Assembly: GCA_950097145.1 (NCBI GenBank) | Contig: CATNCF010000006.1 | Location: 1 to 64,000, forward strand | Source: an uncultured Lachnospiraceae bacterium | Lineage (GTDB): Bacteria; Bacillota; Clostridia; Lachnospirales; Lachnospiraceae | Direction: 5' to 3' | Length of the DNA: 64,000 nt | Part shown: positions 50,117 through 63,720 of the stretch, one piece after another | Layout of the letters: every line of letters begins with the position of its first letter | Position numbering within the stretch: position 1 is the stretch's first letter | Made by a program: the position numbers and the translations under genes | Notes under the pieces: generated by a model | What the model saw: the letters and a program-made list of their open reading frames with translations, nothing else | Told to the model about the DNA's origin: nothing | Databases searched by the model: none

Positions 50117-51508
50117 ATGTTTCAGAAAAATATGGAACTTGAACTTCTTATTGAAGATATAGGTATAGACGGCGAAGGTATTGGAAGGGTGGAGGGAGCG
50201 GCATTTTTTGTGAAGGATGCTGTCATTGGAGATTATGTACGAGTGAAAATAATGAAAATGAAAAAGCGGTATGGATATGCCAGATTACTTAAAGTGATCT
50301 CTCCTTCTCCCAGCCGTGTAGAGCCTCCCTGTAATTACTACCGCCAGTGTGGAGGATGTCAGCTTCAGGCGTTGGATTACGCGGAGCAGCTTCATTTTAA
50401 GGAACGGAAGGTACGGAACAATCTGGAGCGGATTGGCGGATTTCATATAGAAGAAACTGAAAATGGAAAACAGAGGATTCTCTTTCATCCGATTATCGGT
50501 ATGGAAGAGCCTTTTTTCTATCGGAATAAAGCTCAGTTTCCTGTGGGGACAGACAAAGAAGGAAAAATTGTAACGGGATTTTATGCAGCAAGAAGCCATA
50601 ATATTATTTCCAATAGAAAATGCTGTCTGGGCGTGAAAATAAATGAGAAGATTCTGGATATTGTGATTTCTTTTATGGAACGATATGAGATTTCGGCTTA
50701 TGATGAGAAATCAGGTACAGGGCTGGTGCGCCATGTTCTGATCCGCTATGGTTTTACTACAAAAGAAATTATGGTCTGTTTGGTGTTAAACGGCAGCAGG
50801 CTTCCTCAGTCGGATAGTCTGGTACAGGAACTTAAGAAACTTCCAGGGATGACCAGTATAATGCTGAATGTAAATGTTCGGAAAACAAATGTGATTCTGG
50901 GTGAGCAGGTGCTCCGTCTCTGGGGGAAGGAGTATATAACGGACTATATTGGAGAGGTAAAGTACCAGATTTCGCCTCTGTCTTTTTACCAGGTAAATCC
51001 GGTCCAGACGAAAAAGTTATATGAGACTGTATTGGATTACGCTGATTTGACCGGAAGGGAAATTGTGTGTGATCTCTATTGCGGAATAGGGACAATCTCT
51101 TTGTTTTTGGCGCAGAAGGCGGAACGCGTCTATGGAATAGAAGTTGTGGAGCCTGCAATTGAAGATGCCAGAAATAATGCAAAAATAAACGGAATTAATA
51201 ATGCAGAATTTTTGGCTGGAAAAGCGGAGGAGGTACTTCCAAAGCTATATGAGCAGACAGGGCTTTGTGCGGATGTCATTGTGGTAGATCCGCCACGGAA
51301 GGGCTGTGATGAGATATGTCTTGAGACAATTTTGAAAATGCAGCCAGAGCGAGTGGTCTATGTGAGTTGTGACTCAGCGACACTGGCGCGGGATTTGAAA
51401 TATTTGTGTGACAGAGGGTATGAGCTCAGGGAGGTGCAGGCAGTGGATATGTTTTCGCAGACGACACATGTGGAGAGCATATGTCTACTACATCGGAAGG
51501 ATTCGTGA
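50117..51508 (+). CDS. rlmD: 23S rRNA (uracil-C5)-methyltransferase, RlmD/RumA family
   Basis: 463 residues. An N-terminal TRAM domain precedes a [4Fe-4S] Cys cluster (PPCNYYRQCGGCQLQ). The methyltransferase part has VCDLYCGIGTISLFLAQKAE, the nucleophile region VVDPPRKGCD and YVSCDSATLARDLKYL. It methylates a uridine of 23S rRNA at C5. It is intact to TGA 51508 (DMFSQTTHVESICLLHRKDS). Conjugative-element genes begin just after its 3' end, a site used by ICEs in streptococci. Confidence 0.93.
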   Translation: MFQKNMELELLIEDIGIDGEGIGRVEGAAFFVKDAVIGDYVRVKIMKMKKRYGYARLLKVISPSPSRVEPPCNYYRQCGGCQLQALDYAEQLHFKERKVRNNLERIGGFHIEETENGKQRILFHPIIGMEEPFFYRNKAQFPVGTDKEGKIVTGFYAARSHNIISNRKCCLGVKINEKILDIVISFMERYEISAYDEKSGTGLVRHVLIRYGFTTKEIMVCLVLNGSRLPQSDSLVQELKKLPGMTSIMLNVNVRKTNVILGEQVLRLWGKEYITDYIGEVKYQISPLSFYQVNPVQTKKLYETVLDYADLTGREIVCDLYCGIGTISLFLAQKAERVYGIEVVEPAIEDARNNAKINGINNAEFLAGKAEEVLPKLYEQTGLCADVIVVDPPRKGCDEICLETILKMQPERVVYVSCDSATLARDLKYLCDRGYELREVQAVDMFSQTTHVESICLLHRKDS

Positions 51509-51739: not shown

Positions 51740-51776
51740 AGTTTCTATATTAGTTTATTGGAAATGAGAGGTGGTG

Positions 51777-52793
51777 ATGGATATGGCAGGGAAAAAGCAG
51801 GATAATTCTTCAATCGTTCAAGACGAGGGTGTTGGAAGTAAGAAGAACACTTTTGAGGGAAAAATCCAATATTTGTCCTTAAATCAGTTGGCAGACTTCA
51901 AAAATCATCCGTTTAAGGTGGAAATGAATACGGAATTATTTGAACTGATGCAGAGTATTGAAAAAGAGGGTGTTCTGGTGCCGCTGCTTGCAAGACCGAA
52001 TCCGGCAGGGCAGGGATATGAGCTGATAGCGGGACACCGAAGAAAGGCAGCCAGTAAATGGGCAGGTGTGGATAAAGTTCCTGTTATGGTTGTGGAATTG
52101 GATGATAACCAGGCGGTAATCGCAATGGTTGACAGCAACCTGCAGAGGGAGCATATCAAGCCCAGTGAAAAGGCGTTTGCCTACCGGATGAAATTAGAGG
52201 CAATGAAACAGCAGGGGAAAAGGACGGATTTAACTTTGTCCCAAGTTGGGACAAAGTTGCTGGATAATCCAACTTTATCGGTTGCAAAAGTTGTAGCTGA
52301 TTATGATGAATCAGGGGAATGGAAGTTGCAGAATGAACCTGTGAAAATGCGTGCAGATGAAATGCTTGCACGGCAGGTGGGAGAGAGCAGGAACCAGATT
52401 GCACGGTACATTCGTCTGACATACCTCATTCCTAAGATATTAGACTGGGTTGACGAGGGTAAGATAGCATTCACTGTTGCAGTGGAATTATCCTATCTGA
52501 ATGAGGAGCAGCAGTATGAGCTCCATGCCGTGATGGATATAGAACAGTGTACGCCATCCCTGTCACAGGCAAACCGGCTGAAACGCATGAGCCAGTCAGG
52601 GAAGTTGGACATGGATGCAATTTATCTGGTGCTGGAAGAAGAAAAACCAAACCAGAGGGAACAGATAAGGATTCGCTCTGACAGATTGAATCCATATTTC
52701 CCAAAGGATTATACGGTCAGGCAGAAGATTGAACTGATAGAAACACTTGTTAAGGAATGGCATCGGGAACAGATGCAGGTAAAAAGCAGATAA
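51777..52793 (+). CDS. ParB/RepB/Spo0J-family partition protein
   Basis: 338 residues. The ParB N-terminal nuclease-like domain has LVPLLARPNP, YELIAGHRRKAAS (box II, with the arginine patch) and DNQAVIAMVDSNLQREHIKP (box I). A helix-turn-helix follows (MLARQVGESRNQIARYIRLT). It would bind parS-like sites and CTP. No ParA ATPase is adjacent; its neighbours are an actin-like ATPase and a small ribbon-helix-helix-type protein. Starts considered: GTG 51771, ATG 51777 and ATG 51783; GAGAGGTGG suits 51777. Confidence 0.87.
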   Translation: MDMAGKKQDNSSIVQDEGVGSKKNTFEGKIQYLSLNQLADFKNHPFKVEMNTELFELMQSIEKEGVLVPLLARPNPAGQGYELIAGHRRKAASKWAGVDKVPVMVVELDDNQAVIAMVDSNLQREHIKPSEKAFAYRMKLEAMKQQGKRTDLTLSQVGTKLLDNPTLSVAKVVADYDESGEWKLQNEPVKMRADEMLARQVGESRNQIARYIRLTYLIPKILDWVDEGKIAFTVAVELSYLNEEQQYELHAVMDIEQCTPSLSQANRLKRMSQSGKLDMDAIYLVLEEEKPNQREQIRIRSDRLNPYFPKDYTVRQKIELIETLVKEWHREQMQVKSR

Positions 52794-52826
52794 GGAGCTG
52801 GTTACATGAAAAGGAGGACATTCAAA

Positions 52827-53753
52827 ATGGATAACAAAATAGAAGTGATTGGGATAGACCACGGCTGGTCCGGGATGAAAACGGTACATGAGGTATTTAC
52901 ATCAGGCTGTAAGGAAATCAGCACGGAGCCGGCATTTGCAGAGAACGTTTTGGAGTTTGCCGGGAAGTATTACAAGATTGGCAGCAGGCGTCTTGAGGTA
53001 AAGGACACAAAGGTAACGGATGAAAATTACTATATGCTGACATTGGCAGCGGTGGCAAAGGAATTAAAAATCAGGGGCAGAAAGACAGCCCATGTGCTGC
53101 TGGCGGTTGGGCTGCCGCTGACAAGGTTTGGGGACGAGAAAAAAGATTTCGTTTCTTACCTGTTGAAGAAAAAGGAAGTCTCGTTTGCCTTTGAGAAAGA
53201 GAGGTACCATATTTCCATTGACAATATCTGCGTTTACCCGCAATGCTATGCGGCAGTGGTTGACCGTATTGACAGATTCCCGGAGAAACAGCTTGCAGTG
53301 GATATTGGTTCCTGGACAGTAGACATTATGCCAATTGTCAACGGCCTGCCGGATGAATCGGCATGTGTGACCCAGCCGCATGGGATTATCACCTGCATCC
53401 AGCAGATTAACAAGGAGTGTGTGAGGCAGCTGAACGCAGAAGTGGACGAGTATGACATTCAGAAAGTCATGGTAAGTGGCGGGGGAGACCTGCCGGAGAA
53501 GTACCGGAAGATTATCATCAAGGAAATCCGTGGCTACTGCCGGCAGATTTATCACAGCCTCCGGGAGCTTGGCTATAACATGGACCTCACGCAGATAATT
53601 TTTGTGGGCGGTGGCGCCGGGGTGATGAAACGTTTTGGCGGCCTGGAGCAGAAGAACATCCAGTATATTGAGGATGTGAAAGCAAACGCAAGGGGCTATG
53701 AGCTGCTTGGGAACACATATCTGGCACAGTTGCAGAAACGCAGGTTTGGATAG
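52827..53753 (+). CDS. ParM/StbA-family actin-like ATPase
   Basis: 308 residues. The actin-fold nucleotide motifs are present: phosphate 1 GIDHGWSGMKT, phosphate 2 LAVDIGSWTVDIM and the adenosine motif IFVGGGAGVMKRFG. ParM-type proteins polymerise with ATP or GTP and push plasmid copies apart. The start is placed at ATG 52827 because AAAAGGAGG lies 8 bp before it, whereas ATG 52806 would overlap that site. It is followed 11 bp later by a small ParR-like gene, the usual parMR order. Confidence 0.85.
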   Translation: MDNKIEVIGIDHGWSGMKTVHEVFTSGCKEISTEPAFAENVLEFAGKYYKIGSRRLEVKDTKVTDENYYMLTLAAVAKELKIRGRKTAHVLLAVGLPLTRFGDEKKDFVSYLLKKKEVSFAFEKERYHISIDNICVYPQCYAAVVDRIDRFPEKQLAVDIGSWTVDIMPIVNGLPDESACVTQPHGIITCIQQINKECVRQLNAEVDEYDIQKVMVSGGGDLPEKYRKIIIKEIRGYCRQIYHSLRELGYNMDLTQIIFVGGGAGVMKRFGGLEQKNIQYIEDVKANARGYELLGNTYLAQLQKRRFG

Positions 53754-53764
53754 GGGGGATTGCA

Positions 53765-54202
53765 ATGGCTTATGGGGACCTGTTCCGCAATTTCACGATA
53801 CGTTTTTCCATGACAAAAAGAGAGCATGTCCGGCTGCTGGAAAAGTTTGAGGATGATAAACTGAATGGCGGGAGGGCAAAGAACCAGGTGGTCATGGACG
53901 CGCTGAAAATGTATTATGACGCACAGGAGGCAGGGAATGGGAATGGGCTGCCGGAAGAAATGACGCCTGCCTATTTTGAAAAGAGGCTGTCCGAGGTGAA
54001 AGAGGAGATAAAGACAGAAGTAATCCATGAGGTTGTCCGCATCGTTTTAGGGAATGCAGTGGCAGGGCAGCCGGTTATGGCGCATCTTCCCGACGGGGAG
54101 CCGGAGGCAGAAGATACAGAAGATATGGAAGAAGATGGGGCTGCAGGCATTAGCGGGATGCCGGACGTCATGGATAAGATAATGGCATGGAGTGAGGAGT
54201 AG
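53765..54202 (+). CDS. Putative ParR-like centromere-binding adaptor
   Basis: 145 residues. The N-terminal about 50 (TIRFSMTKREHVRLLEKFED, then GGRAKNQVVMDALKMYYDAQ) fit a ribbon-helix-helix DNA-binding unit. The C-terminal part is acidic and disordered-looking (EAEDTEDMEEDGAAG) and ends in a short helix, like the ParM-binding tail of ParR. Gene order and spacing after the ParM-like gene support the role. Similarity is by pattern, not clear identity. Confidence 0.65.
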   Translation: MAYGDLFRNFTIRFSMTKREHVRLLEKFEDDKLNGGRAKNQVVMDALKMYYDAQEAGNGNGLPEEMTPAYFEKRLSEVKEEIKTEVIHEVVRIVLGNAVAGQPVMAHLPDGEPEAEDTEDMEEDGAAGISGMPDVMDKIMAWSEE

Positions 54203-60029: not shown

Positions 60030-61004
60030 ATGAGGATGTTGAGGTTTACAGAGGAAGAGCTGGCGCTTGCAAAACAGGTTGACTTATGCAGGGTGGCAGA
60101 ACGATTAGGATATACCGTAAAAAGGATTGGCCAGTACCATACGCTGAAAGAGATGGATTCCATCCGCATTTATCACAGGAGCCACTGGTGCAGGTTTTCA
60201 AGGCGGTATGACAAGGGGGAGAACGGCGGCAGCCAGATTGATTTCCTGCGGGTGTTTGCAGGCATGGATGTGAAAGAGGCGGTGTTCTGGCTGCTGGATT
60301 TTGCGGGATACCGGAGGGAGGAAAGCGAGAGGGGCATTCGGAACATTGCCCCGGATAGAGGGAAAGAGGAACGCCCAAAGCCTTTCATATTGCCGGAGCC
60401 TGCGGGCAGCAACGCTTATCTGTACCGTTATCTGGAGCATGAACGCGGGATTGCACGGCCGGTCATTGACTTTTTTGTGAGGAAAGGGATTCTGTATGAG
60501 GCGAAGAATTACCACAACATTGTCTTTGTAGGAACAGATGGGAAAGGTGTGCCAAAGTTTGCTAGTATGCGGGGCGTCTTTGACAGGGATGGGAAAGGAT
60601 TTAAGTGTGACGTGGCGGGAAACGACAAACGGTACGGTTTCCATTTCCATTGCCAGGGCAGCAGGGAAGTCATTGTGTTTGAGGCAGCAATCGACCTGAT
60701 GAGCCATATCACGATGTTCCCGGCGTACAGGGCAAGCATGGTGGCGCTTGGGATGCTGGCGGATGCCCCGCTGGAAACATTCCTTGCACAGCACCCGGAG
60801 GTAGAAAAAATTAAATTATGCCTGGACAATGATGGACCGGGCAGGAAAGCGGCGGAAACACTGCGGCAGAAGTACAGGGAAAAGGGTTATGCGGCTGAGA
60901 TTTTTCTGCCTCCAGAACCGTACAAGGACTTTAACCAGTGGAATGTGGGACTGAAAAAATCAGAGGAACAGGAAGAAATCCGGGAAACGGAAAAAGTGAT
61001 GTAG
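60030..61004 (+). CDS. Toprim/DUF3991 primase-like protein
   Basis: 324 residues. The N-terminal DUF3991-type part includes WCRFSRRYDKGENGGSQIDF, resembling a degenerate primase zinc-binding domain. The C-terminal Toprim fold has VIVFEAAIDLMSHITM (metal Glu) and IKLCLDNDGPGRKAAETLRQ (DxD). Proteins of this kind serve replication or lagging-strand priming of mobile elements. The stop codon TAG (61002-61004) lies inside the first copy of the repeat array downstream. Confidence 0.8.
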   Translation: MRMLRFTEEELALAKQVDLCRVAERLGYTVKRIGQYHTLKEMDSIRIYHRSHWCRFSRRYDKGENGGSQIDFLRVFAGMDVKEAVFWLLDFAGYRREESERGIRNIAPDRGKEERPKPFILPEPAGSNAYLYRYLEHERGIARPVIDFFVRKGILYEAKNYHNIVFVGTDGKGVPKFASMRGVFDRDGKGFKCDVAGNDKRYGFHFHCQGSREVIVFEAAIDLMSHITMFPAYRASMVALGMLADAPLETFLAQHPEVEKIKLCLDNDGPGRKAAETLRQKYREKGYAAEIFLPPEPYKDFNQWNVGLKKSEEQEEIRETEKVM

Positions 61005-61186
61005 GAATGGTGTAGTTTTGCAGATTTTTGGTGTAGGAATGGTGTAGAAAATGAAGAAAATGGTGTAGGAATGGTGTAGGCTTTTCGGACAGCCTTTTTT
61101 TGATGGTGTAGGAATGGTGTAGTTTTGCAGATTTTTGGTGTAGGAATGGTGTAGAAAATGAAGAAAATGGTGTAGGAATGGTGTAG
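60997..61186 (+). repeat. Iteron-like array: six 19-bp direct repeats in two blocks
   Basis: TGGTGTAGGAATGGTGTAG occurs at about 60997 (one base changed), 61029, 61061, 61104, 61136 and 61168. Each copy is itself two TGGTGTAG units 11 bp apart. Within a block the copies lie 32 bp apart. The second block repeats the first at a distance of 107 bp with identical spacers. A small terminator lies between the blocks. Such arrays are typical of replication origins or of ParR-type centromeres. Confidence 0.85.
61078..61101 (+). terminator. Small terminator between the repeat blocks
   Basis: AGGCT pairs with AGCCT around TTTCGGAC, followed by seven T residues. It would end the transcript of the Toprim gene. 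Confidence 0.65.
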
Positions 61187-61388
61187 ATTTTCTGTTTATC
61201 CGTATATTATCAGGGTTTTAGGGAGACGTGTCCCTAACCAGAAAGCCGAACCTCCGGGCGGCTTGCATTTTGTGACACAAAATGCGTATCTGGCGAAAAC
61301 TTTGGGAGTGAAAGCGGGCCAAAGTTTTCAGGGCAGGAGTGGACCGGCAGCGGGTAAAAACAGACAGGTAAGGAAATGAAAACAGGAG
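61187..61388 (+). other. Palindrome-rich region, oriT candidate
   Basis: No gene lies between the array and the next start. Three inverted repeats follow one another: TAGGGA/TCCCTA (near 61219-61237); GCATTTTGTG-a-CACAAAATGC (near 61264-61284), which is perfect; and GAAAACTTTGG/CCAAAGTTTTC (near 61295-61330), which is perfect. This density, directly upstream of mobC and the relaxase gene, is typical of a transfer origin. The nick site cannot be named. Confidence 0.55.
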
Positions 61389-61400
61389 GTGCAAGGGAGC

Positions 61401-61961
61401 ATGGGAATGGAAGTGCTGGAAGTAAACACGCCCGGTGAGCTGGTGATGTGGCTTTATCTGGCGGAATCAGAGGTCAGCATGCAACAGGGTGAGGCAGAAA
61501 TTATTCTGGACTATCTGAAAGAGCATAACATGGCGCTGGCTGTATGCAGCCAGGAACTGATGGTAAAAGATATGGGAGAGGAATCCCCGGAATATCAGCC
61601 TTATTCCATAGATGATGCCATCCACGATGTCTGTGAGTGGAATCTGGAGCTGATAGACGAGATGGAGGAGGGTATGAAAAACCCAGACAGCCGGGAGGAT
61701 TATGACCGGTTCAGCGACGCACTTGATGTCCTGAAACAGCAGGAAGAAGTGCTGGACGGCCTGTACAGCCAGACGAAATATGAGCAGATTGCAGTGGAAT
61801 GTGCATTGCAGGCGATTATTGCCGCACTTGGAAGTGTGCCGGAGGGAGTACAGGAAAAACTGGATGCATACAGACAGCGCAGCCCGGGGCAGACAGAAAA
61901 AACAGCAGGGATGGAAGAAGGAAACAGGCAGGAAACAGGGCAGCAGGAAAGGATAAGGTAG
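61401..61961 (+). CDS. Hypothetical ICE protein
   Basis: 186 residues from ATG 61401 behind GGAGGTGCAAGGGAG. It is acidic and helical (SEVSMQQGEAEIILDYLKEH, then DDAIHDVCEWNLELIDEMEE), with a Gln/Glu-rich tail. No known domain recognised. It is directly followed by mobC without a gap, so it may help the relaxosome or control transfer. Confidence 0.65.
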   Translation: MGMEVLEVNTPGELVMWLYLAESEVSMQQGEAEIILDYLKEHNMALAVCSQELMVKDMGEESPEYQPYSIDDAIHDVCEWNLELIDEMEEGMKNPDSREDYDRFSDALDVLKQQEEVLDGLYSQTKYEQIAVECALQAIIAALGSVPEGVQEKLDAYRQRSPGQTEKTAGMEEGNRQETGQQERIR

Positions 61962-62285
61962 ATGGCAAAGGAAGTTGTAAAGCATTTCCGCCTGACTGCC
62001 CATGATGCGGGGATTTTTGCGGATAAGGCGAAAGATGCGGGGATGAAGGAATCTGAGTATTTCCGCCTGCTGATAACGCAGGAGCCAAACGACTATCCAG
62101 AAGTGAGGCAGGGGCTGAAAGCCCTTATTAATGAAGTGAACCGGATTGGCGTCAACATCAATGAGATTGTCCACAACAATAATTCAGGGTTGTACCGGGA
62201 GTCAGATAAAATCCGTCTGGTTGCCTATATGCGGAAACTGAATGAGGGGATGGAAAGCGTGGTGGCGGCTCTTGGCTATCACTAA
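61962..62285 (+). CDS. mobC: MobC-family relaxosome accessory protein
   Basis: 107 residues. The N-terminus KHFRLTAHDAGIFADKAKDA followed by GMKESEYFRLLI is a ribbon-helix-helix. The C-terminal half has the MobC pattern ALINEVNRIGVNINEIVHNN and YMRKLNEGMESVV. It binds oriT and helps the relaxase reach the nick site. It starts right at the end of the preceding gene and overlaps the relaxase start. Confidence 0.9.
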   Translation: MAKEVVKHFRLTAHDAGIFADKAKDAGMKESEYFRLLITQEPNDYPEVRQGLKALINEVNRIGVNINEIVHNNNSGLYRESDKIRLVAYMRKLNEGMESVVAALGYH

Positions 62286-63720
62286 GATTTTAACCATCAA
62301 TGACAGCGGCGTGAAGTTTGCGGGGAAACATCTGGAGCAGGCGGTTTCCTACATCCTTGACAGGGGGAAAACGCAGGGCGGCAGGCTGGTGACGGGAGTC
62401 AACTGCCTGCCAGGGAAAGCCTATGAGCAGATGGCGGAGACAAAACAGAAGTATGGGAAGACGGGCAAGAGGCAGGGCTACCACCTCATCATTTCCTTTG
62501 AGGCGGGTGAGGTCAGTCCGGACACTGCTTTTGAGATTATCCGGCGATTTGTGGAGGAATATCTGGGGCAGGAGTACGAGGCGGTTCTCGCCGTCCATGA
62601 CAATACCGCCCATGTCCACGGGCATATCATATTCAACAGCGTGAATTACCTGGACGGCAGGAAATACCGCTATGAAAAAGGAGACTGGGCAAAAAAGATA
62701 CAGCCCATCACAAACCGGCTTTGTGAGGAATATGGGCTTTCGACCATAGAGATAGAGGAATATGGCAGGAAACGCAATCAGAGGTATAAGGACTGGAATG
62801 AGTTCCGGGATGGAAAATTCATCTGGCGGGAAATGATACGGAGGGATGTGGATGCCTGCGTCATGCAGGCGGAATCCTTTGAGGAGTTTCTTGGCTTTAT
62901 GGCGGAAAAGGGCTATGACGTCAGGCAGAATAAATATCTGGCGGTCCGGCCTAAGGGGATGCAGCGGTTCTGCCGGTGCAAATCTATGGGAGAAAATTAT
63001 ACGGAGGACAGGATATGGGAGAGAATCCGGCAGGAAAGCTTTGAGACCTATGCAAAAAGGGGGTGTGGGGAAGAATCCCATGCCATAGCCCCCCCGGAGG
63101 ATGAATTTTTGCGCAGGACAAAACTGACAGGCATACAGAAAACCTATTATGCAAGGGTATGCCGCCTGCGCCATCTGGAACGGCTGCCTTACAGCAAGGC
63201 ATGGGAATACCGGGAGGAAATCCGTAAAATGCAGGAAGTCCATGAGAAATACCTGTTCCTTGTAAAGAATGGAATCCATTCCCTTGCGGAGTTAATTGCA
63301 GCCAGAGAGAACCTTGAGGAAAAAGCGGCAGAGTGCAAAAAAGAGAGGCGCAGGCTGTACAGGGAGAAAAAGCAGATGGAGCCGTTGTTTTCTGTAGCAG
63401 ATAAGATGGCGGAATTAGCCCCGGCGGAAGAAAGCTATCAGGCAGGGGATGATTTTTTTGCAAAGGAGCACCTGCGGTATCAGGCATTGGAGGGACAGCT
63501 GCAGAGCCAGGGATATTCACTGGAAGAAACAGAAATCCTCCGCAATAGATATAAGGACAGGGGCAGCGGCATTTACCAGAGGCAGAGGGAAATCAGCCGG
63601 AGGTTAAAAATGTCAGGGGAAATGATAGAGGAATTTACCGACAGTCTGGAATGGGCAAGGGACAGGCAGACGGTAAAAACAAAACAGGATTTAAGCGGGG
63701 ACAGCCGGAGCAGGGAATGA
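62272..63720 (+). CDS. MOBP-type relaxase (TTG start)
   Basis: About 482 residues. Homologues begin MAITKI, matching LAITKILTI here, so TTG 62272 is preferred over ATG 62242, which lies inside mobC. A Tyr in QAVSYILD near residue 27 is the probable nicking residue. YHLIISFEAGE and the histidine triad VHDNTAHVHGHIIFNSVN (about 109-118) form the metal site. The C-terminal half is a basic coiled coil. It cuts oriT, stays bound to the 5' end and leads the strand into the recipient. Confidence 0.9.
   Translation: MAITKILTINDSGVKFAGKHLEQAVSYILDRGKTQGGRLVTGVNCLPGKAYEQMAETKQKYGKTGKRQGYHLIISFEAGEVSPDTAFEIIRRFVEEYLGQEYEAVLAVHDNTAHVHGHIIFNSVNYLDGRKYRYEKGDWAKKIQPITNRLCEEYGLSTIEIEEYGRKRNQRYKDWNEFRDGKFIWREMIRRDVDACVMQAESFEEFLGFMAEKGYDVRQNKYLAVRPKGMQRFCRCKSMGENYTEDRIWERIRQESFETYAKRGCGEESHAIAPPEDEFLRRTKLTGIQKTYYARVCRLRHLERLPYSKAWEYREEIRKMQEVHEKYLFLVKNGIHSLAELIAARENLEEKAAECKKERRRLYREKKQMEPLFSVADKMAELAPAEESYQAGDDFFAKEHLRYQALEGQLQSQGYSLEETEILRNRYKDRGSGIYQRQREISRRLKMSGEMIEEFTDSLEWARDRQTVKTKQDLSGDSRSRE

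Follow-up and report, generated by a model that had tools for sequence, protein, structure and literature searches.

In the type II (ParMRC) partition systems of R1, pB171, pSK41 and the C. perfringens pCW3 family, as described in PMC9426499, the parC repeats are 10-20 bp long, vary in sequence and spacing between families and are usually located upstream of parM, and ParR specificity in C. perfringens plasmids is tied to incompatibility. ICEs of the SXT/R391 family carry a working ParMRC-like system, srpMRC, whose SrpR binds repeats, and their srpM-mobI intergenic region is reported to contain both srpC and oriT (PMC4489591). As these two sites occupy one intergenic region, a centromere near oriT has precedent, and the SXT/R391 example shows that partition can matter for ICEs in the excised state. 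For R388, PMC3098194 describes an operon beside oriT with the stbDRs, two sets of five 9-bp repeats 2 bp apart, at which StbA binding affects both stability and transfer, and for R1 both ParM and ParR are reported to bind TraI and stimulate transfer (PMC4949242). The mobilizable element SGI1 carries the centromere sites of its IncC helper and, according to PMC10954446, is stabilised by the helper's partition proteins.

The window, the whole 64,000-nucleotide stretch analysed here, comes from an uncultured Lachnospiraceae bacterium and contains a repeat array. On one side of the array is a DUF3991/toprim gene and on the other an oriT-like region, beyond which lie mobC and a relaxase gene. A parB gene, a parM gene and a gene for a 145-aa protein, referred to below as ParR or ParR-like, are located ~7 kb upstream of the array (6.8 kb from parR to the array). 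The features are as follows.

51771..52793, + strand: ParB-like protein, 340 aa (family match).
52806..53753, + strand: ParM/actin-like protein, 315 aa (Pfam ALP_N, PHROG, PDB ALP12).
53765..54202, + strand: ParR-like protein, 145 aa, the proposed array reader (position after parM; separates array types).
60030..61004, + strand: DUF3991/Toprim_2 primase-like protein, 324 aa (domain match).
60997..61079, + strand: array block 1, three TGRTGTAG-GAA-TGGTGTAG doublets at 32-bp steps (repeat count, spacing).
61078..61102, + strand: hairpin (61078-61095) plus T-run tail between the blocks, terminator-like (hairpin scan).
61104..61186, + strand: array block 2, three doublets with the layout of block 1 and 1 mismatch over 83 bp (repeat count, block comparison).
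61213..61330, + strand: oriT-like region, GGGTTTTAGGGA..TCCCTAACCAGA, with inverted repeats at 61265-61285 and 61295-61329 and a conserved core GCGTATCTGGC (inverted repeats, conservation).
61389..61961, + strand: p190, a fast-evolving 190-aa protein with no family match (ORF, family search).
61962..62285, + strand: MobC/NikA-like relaxosome protein, 107 aa (family match).
62242..63720, + strand: MobA/VirD2-type relaxase, 492 aa (family match).

Because the region 61213..61330 precedes mobC and the relaxase gene, we infer that it is the oriT. The array itself is probably the cis site of the element's own ParM-ParR pair, a parC-like centromere beside oriT and about 7 kb from parR. Like the type II parC sites of R1, pB171, pSK41 and the pCW3 family, it would combine a repeat array with a small protein of the parM operon as its proposed reader; unlike them, arrays of this layout lie beside oriT on an ICE, at 2.4-16.8 kb from parR across elements, and they keep their 32-bp steps, frequently as 3+3 doublets, across widely differing sequences. 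With srpMRC the locus shares a ParMRC-like partition system on an ICE and a putative centromere near oriT, yet srpC lies directly upstream of srpM and consists of four 13-bp repeats, and the srpMRC locus is strictly conserved in the SXT/R391 family whereas the arrays described here split into many types. The R388 stbDRs are likewise repeats near oriT, but the StbA system has no actin-like motor, uses a different DNA-binding protein and lacks the 32-bp doublet layout. Three traits of type II ParMRC systems are present, namely an actin-like ParM, a small gene directly downstream and a cis repeat array that co-varies, as a correlation, with the adaptor, whereas a parC next to parM is absent; because the literature calls the place upstream of parM the usual one, we treat this trait as typical rather than defining. 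A literature search by title and beginning of abstract, covering few subscription papers, returned no description of such an array or of ParMR specificity groups in Lachnospiraceae ICEs.

The array is built from a 19-bp doublet, TGGTGTAGGAATGGTGTAG, with six + strand copies starting at 60997, 61029, 61061, 61104, 61136 and 61168, while 100 dinucleotide shuffles give a mean of 0.02 copies and a maximum of 1. Successive boxes are spaced by 11,21,11,21,11,32,11,21,11,21,11 bp, which places the doublets at steps of 32, 32, 43, 32 and 32 bp; the block period is 107 bp, and the first 83 bp of blocks 1 and 2 differ at 1 position. The original prediction of a six-copy doublet array with 11-bp and 32-bp periods and two blocks 107 bp apart is hence borne out, with the correction that five of the six copies are exact and the first carries one mismatch (TGATGTAG). 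In the rest of the window genome (82.8% complete), the doublet pattern occurs once more, at contig C60:9888, where three TGGTGTAG boxes 11 and 8 bp apart (G000:C60:9888-9914, L006) stand in a different setting.

A terminator had also been predicted between the blocks. Its hairpin and T-run are indeed present, but as our scan finds 1 such site against 0.5 expected by chance, a terminator function is plausible at most. Block 1 starts at the toprim stop codon, with the first box overlapping the TAG at 61002-61004, and is followed by this hairpin, an arrangement that would suit an array acting as an RNA or as a terminator or regulatory leader downstream of toprim. We regard such a role as extremely improbable, since the hairpin is not distinguishable from chance, block 2 is located past it, no Rfam family matches at gathering thresholds, and direct- and inverted-repeat arrays are unlikely to have one fold in common.

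Further along the same contig are genes for a coupling protein, a TraG P-loop ATPase that we read as VirB4-like, an NlpC/P60 protein and a sortase; together with the mobility genes, these indicate that the window element is very probably an ICE, adjoining rlmD (rumA). Another genome of the genus, G012, has an element, 99.6-99.9% identical over the stretch available, that adjoins a 75% identical rlmD, with homology starting between 51184 and 51270. Near-identity with G012 begins within rlmD (window 51184-51508), and the element itself may contribute the end of this gene. In G012 the array is a single block (L176 1469-1551), one 107-bp unit being absent, which may reflect assembly collapse in a draft genome. 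No integrase was recognised by eye among the ORF starts of the window element.

The ParM-like protein foreseen on the element is well supported, with matches to Pfam ALP_N (E=2.3e-10), a PHROG partition protein (1.8e-33) and PDB 4apw (ALP12; E=2.5e-6). In relatives, the DNA examined includes parM at 33 of 42 loci, and at every one of these 33 an ORF of at least 90 aa directly follows it. Neither family libraries nor solved structures gave a convincing match to the 145-aa ParR-like protein; a ribbon-helix-helix pattern is visible by eye only, and the protein's single-sequence AlphaFold2 model has low confidence (mean pLDDT 46.5). All 13 aligned ParR-like proteins conserve a tryptophan close to the C-terminus, which may mark a ParM-binding tail. 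At the nine loci with arrays other than type A (see below) where BLAST aligned it, identity to the window protein is 21-29%, and across such non-A loci ParM shows 46-64%, toprim 49-64% and p190 24-37%. p190 evolves nearly as fast as ParR, and its length varies widely across relatives. Searches found no ParM relatives in viral contigs and no plasmids with a relative of one ICE ParR (L230).

Loci with toprim relatives were drawn from 299 family genomes, 392 order genomes and 29 genus genomes, plus one plasmid, and our claim about geometry covers those with toprim identity of about 49% or more. In these relatives, an array of other repeats is located between toprim and an oriT-like motif (GGGTTTTAGGG..CCCTAAC..GCGTATCTGGC and variants), which adjoins the array wherever it was found. 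The repeat types, about 20 when counted by eye, include GTGGGGGCAGAAAGCGCCCCC, GGTAG..CTACC, AAGTAGGAAACCTACTT and GTGAGTGATAAAAGGTCACTC; some look direct, others, in many relatives, inverted, and many have a central AAAAAG in common, again as judged by eye. Copies of a 20-bp unit outnumber those in any of 20 shuffles in 36 of 39 loci (exceptions L241, L244 and L248), and a 31-33-bp step is likewise present in 36 of 39 (exceptions L228, L244 and L245); because many of the 39 loci are related, the independent evidence amounts to roughly 20 repeat types. Doublets in a 3 + 3 arrangement are frequent. In 17 hand-read loci, the inter-block gaps of 43, 54, 55, 64, 65 and 84 bp correspond to 4.0, 5.1, 5.2, 6.0, 6.1 and 7.9 turns of 10.67 bp, values near integers (p=0.0028, a rough value from a test on distinct values in which some loci belong to one clade). 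The period of 10.67 was picked after the 32-bp step had been seen, and 10.5 and 11.0 give similar results; L244-L246, L251, L253, L255, L264 and duplicates were left out of the test, and among them L253/L255 (49, 47 bp) and L251 (78 bp) have gaps off whole turns.

Absence of the array from close relatives had been named as an observation that would speak against the original prediction. Instead, G012, G019, G025 and G321 keep the repeat, and distant relatives keep the geometry with other sequences. At lower toprim identity, no array was seen by eye in L217, L219 and L220 (39-44%), and L260-L262 (43-45%; outside the 39 loci) have parM and a following gene with no array at the toprim-oriT place; by-eye reading covered 22 of the 30 family-genome loci, with L218 and L221-L227 outside it. 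Across 19 elements scanned, every site outside the array scores below the weakest site within it, and the top outside score (L235) comes from the edge of L235's own array; the centromere-like site thus appears to be detached from parMR. Two plasmids offer side views. A segment of the E. faecalis plasmid pW208 (L268 15088-15309) has toprim, a 3+3 array at 32-bp steps, an oriT-like motif, mobC and relaxase, with resistance genes nearby; no parM was found, and the pW208 type of box occurs in 0 of the 299 genomes. The Ruminococcus plasmid pRUMAL02, which has a related parM, carries an 11-bp repeat pair, TTGTCAGGTT, just upstream of parM (L270 5866-5887), the usual place of parC; downstream of this parM are a small gene, mobC and relaxase.

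Which gene changes with the array was examined in two sets of elements. In set 1, four elements have A arrays (GGTGTAG) and a fifth has a B array (GATATAG), which is interrupted by about 3.5 kb of other sequence that looks like an insertion; set 2 compares one C1 element (G021) with four C2 elements. ParR identity is 70.3% within and 52.1% between A and B arrays, with a single element as the B group, and 89.2% within C2 and 63.4% between C2 and C1, the C1 ParR also coming from a single element. Of the 10 genes compared, ParR is the sole one that separates the array types in both contrasts, whereas MobC, toprim, relaxase, p190 and DUF5688, also considered as readers, separate them in neither. 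The pair G019 (A) and G023 (B) is the closest of set 1 at toprim (90%), relaxase (95%) and p190 (84%), yet its ParR proteins are 49% identical, against 63-77% in every A-A pair; all four A-type ParR proteins contain FTIRFS, and the B-type protein has FLLRFS. In set 2, ParR identity is 60-65% between C1 and C2 and 83-98% within C2, while the ranges of MobC, p190, relaxase, toprim and ParM overlap. Thus, among closely related elements, a change of array goes along with a change in a gene located 7-11 kb from it.

When one C1 element was compared gene by gene with two C2 elements over about 46 kb, the ParR drop (92.5 vs 64.2%) was the largest among the non-overlapping + strand genes common to all three. 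Other genes also drop between C2 and C1, including a 366-aa gene (87 -> 75%) and a 112-aa ORF that overlaps another gene (86 -> 58%), and o64053 and o65173, downstream of the relaxase gene, separate C1 from C2 as well, on one within-C2 pair. Two ORFs of C2, of 85 and 172 aa, lack a full match in C1. The 172-aa ORF, located beside parR, was set aside as a general reader, having a full-length match in 3 of 42 loci (L241, L254 and L256) and partial ones in L252, L258 and L240; so was the 85-aa transfer-region ORF, which was found in the two C2 elements but in none of C1, the window and G023. An all-pairs Mantel test, with near-identical elements removed (30 -> 23), ranks the ParR N-terminus as the best predictor under one array-similarity measure, whereas under another toprim, ParM and p190 perform as well as or better than ParR. 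As its ranking depends on how array similarity is scored, we do not take it as decisive, and because it agrees in one version and not in another, the case rests on the two contrasts. Taken together, these comparisons indicate that ParR is likely the reader of the array.

The same contrasts bear on two other readers. Since the array adjoins the oriT and the genes of both MobC and p190, and p190 is fast evolving and ranks with the top predictors under one of the all-pairs scorings, the array could be an accessory part of oriT read by MobC or p190, and a MobC-binding part of oriT was among the original suggestions. This now seems highly improbable, as neither protein separates the array types: MobC is 95% identical between G019 and G023 and 99% between G021 and G319 despite their different arrays, and its identity does not fall across types (94.4% within and 94.9% between for A/B; 85.8% and 91.4% for C2/C1). 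Moreover, p190 is 80% identical between G021 (C1) and G319 (C2), and both it and MobC are more alike in this pair than between G319 and G024 with their common array (72% for p190, 98% for MobC). A replication origin had been proposed too, in which the array would be a set of iterons read by a Rep-like protein or by the neighbouring toprim protein; direct repeats of iteron-like size beside a primase-like gene fit this idea. However, toprim does not separate the array types, keeping 89-91% (C1/C2) and 80-90% (A/B) identity while the array changes, the arrays of many relatives look inverted rather than direct by eye, and no Rep family was found among the element proteins scanned (a subset of the genes). 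We give an origin role very little credence. In contrast, the suggestion of a centromere or ParR site gains support from the actin-like ParM, the 145-aa gene directly after parM and the co-change of this gene with the array.

Some smaller mobile elements also appear to carry copies of the array sites. Nine IME-like loci, organized as integrase, repressor and xis followed by the array, carry A boxes, and three of them also carry B boxes: the A + B clusters of L092 (4643-5038; relaxase of the MobA/MobL family), L126 (772-1290) and L175 (1424-1851) lie downstream of xis and upstream of the relaxase gene, and the A-box cluster of L194 (10340-10456) lies downstream of xis. Because the A box was the search bait, the A boxes of the A/B IMEs are not independent evidence; the B boxes were not bait, and they number 8, 11 and 10 against simulated maxima of 2-3. 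The window ParM, ParR and toprim queries gave no match in the IME-like loci (3-20 kb stretches), where a diverged ParR alone could be missed. A less biased check with the GGGGGC-type box found 28 sites in 7 of 299 genomes, 25 in ICE arrays and 3 elsewhere. One of the latter, in G228 (L321 1500-1810), has nine box centres in a 3x3 layout with 32-bp steps, upstream of NikA/MobC-like and relaxase genes on an 8.3-kb contig with an integrase and no match to the ParM and ParR queries. At the other two, G099:C3 (L323 1501-1810) and G294 (L320 1501-1640), the boxes are followed by ICE oriT-like sequence, with 76-83 of 102-104 aligned positions identical (74-80%). The gaps are 44 and 45 bp in L321 and 106 bp in L323. 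G099:C3 may be a decayed element, as it contains pieces of an integrase and of a relaxase-like protein (75 aa) and is located about 2.5 kb away from a gene resembling rlmD, and at the G294 locus no query matched in 20 kb.

Approaching from the IME relaxase gave 46 matches in 34 of 299 genomes, and the 30 loci inspected had no A/B cluster within 1.5 kb upstream. A scan for ICE-type words in 27 of these 30 loci returned L292 (11 vs a shuffle maximum of 10) and L311 (15 vs 9), the other 25 staying within their own shuffle maxima; the array of L292 is mixed, with a period of 32 bp and a gap of 35 bp that does not amount to whole turns. We tentatively suggest, as a possibility that we do not yet favour, that array and oriT form a portable cis cassette copied by hitchhikers from ICEs, and that elements lacking parM and parR, with arrays of a single or multiple ICE specificities that are sometimes linked to an ICE-like oriT, use the ParR, and perhaps the ParM, of a resident ICE to segregate, move or signal. 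In that case, incompatibility between sister ICEs and the hitchhikers would both exert pressure on the repeat types, and such pressure would explain a constant geometry with a fast-changing sequence. Unlike the parS sites of SGI1, which belong to a type I ParABS system, the putative sites on these Lachnospiraceae elements resemble the boxes of actin-type ParMR arrays.

The pairing of boxes with oriT-like sequence at two non-ICE loci, together with the array adjoining the oriT-like motif in the relatives where the motif was found, raises the alternative that the array serves conjugative transfer and not segregation, with ParR beside oriT aiding or restraining the relaxosome and docking DNA at the pore, for which R1 ParM/ParR and R388 StbA offer precedents of effects on transfer. 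We consider this unlikely, because the helical phasing and the full parM-parR pair fit a segregation scaffold, though a transfer role and a centromere role are compatible and need not exclude each other.

If the array is a parC-like centromere, its layout suggests how it might work. Each ~20-bp doublet would provide two half-sites one helical turn apart, and with doublets every three turns and blocks close to whole turns apart, ParR molecules bound along the array would all sit on the same side of the helix. If the site works like those of R1, pSK41 and C. perfringens, the protein would cover the phased half-sites and show its ParM-binding tails on that side, and the scaffold so formed could serve as a platform for the push of ParM filaments when the ICE is excised and circular. 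The half-site sequence would set which ParR reads the array, as in plasmid incompatibility groups. As the array lies 7 kb from parR and beside oriT, ParR bound there may also act on transfer, and a double role in partition and transfer, modelled on the known plasmid systems, fits this position.

The natural swaps of specificity among these elements are a ready set for studying how ParR reads DNA, and, with a centromere-like site that adjoins oriT but is remote from parMR, a connection between partition and conjugation becomes open to experiment. If mobilizable elements truly carry such sites, the hijacking of parS known from SGI1 would extend to actin-type systems. Collectively, our findings suggest that a large family of ICEs in gut bacteria falls into many ParR/array specificity groups, which may represent incompatibility types readable from sequence.
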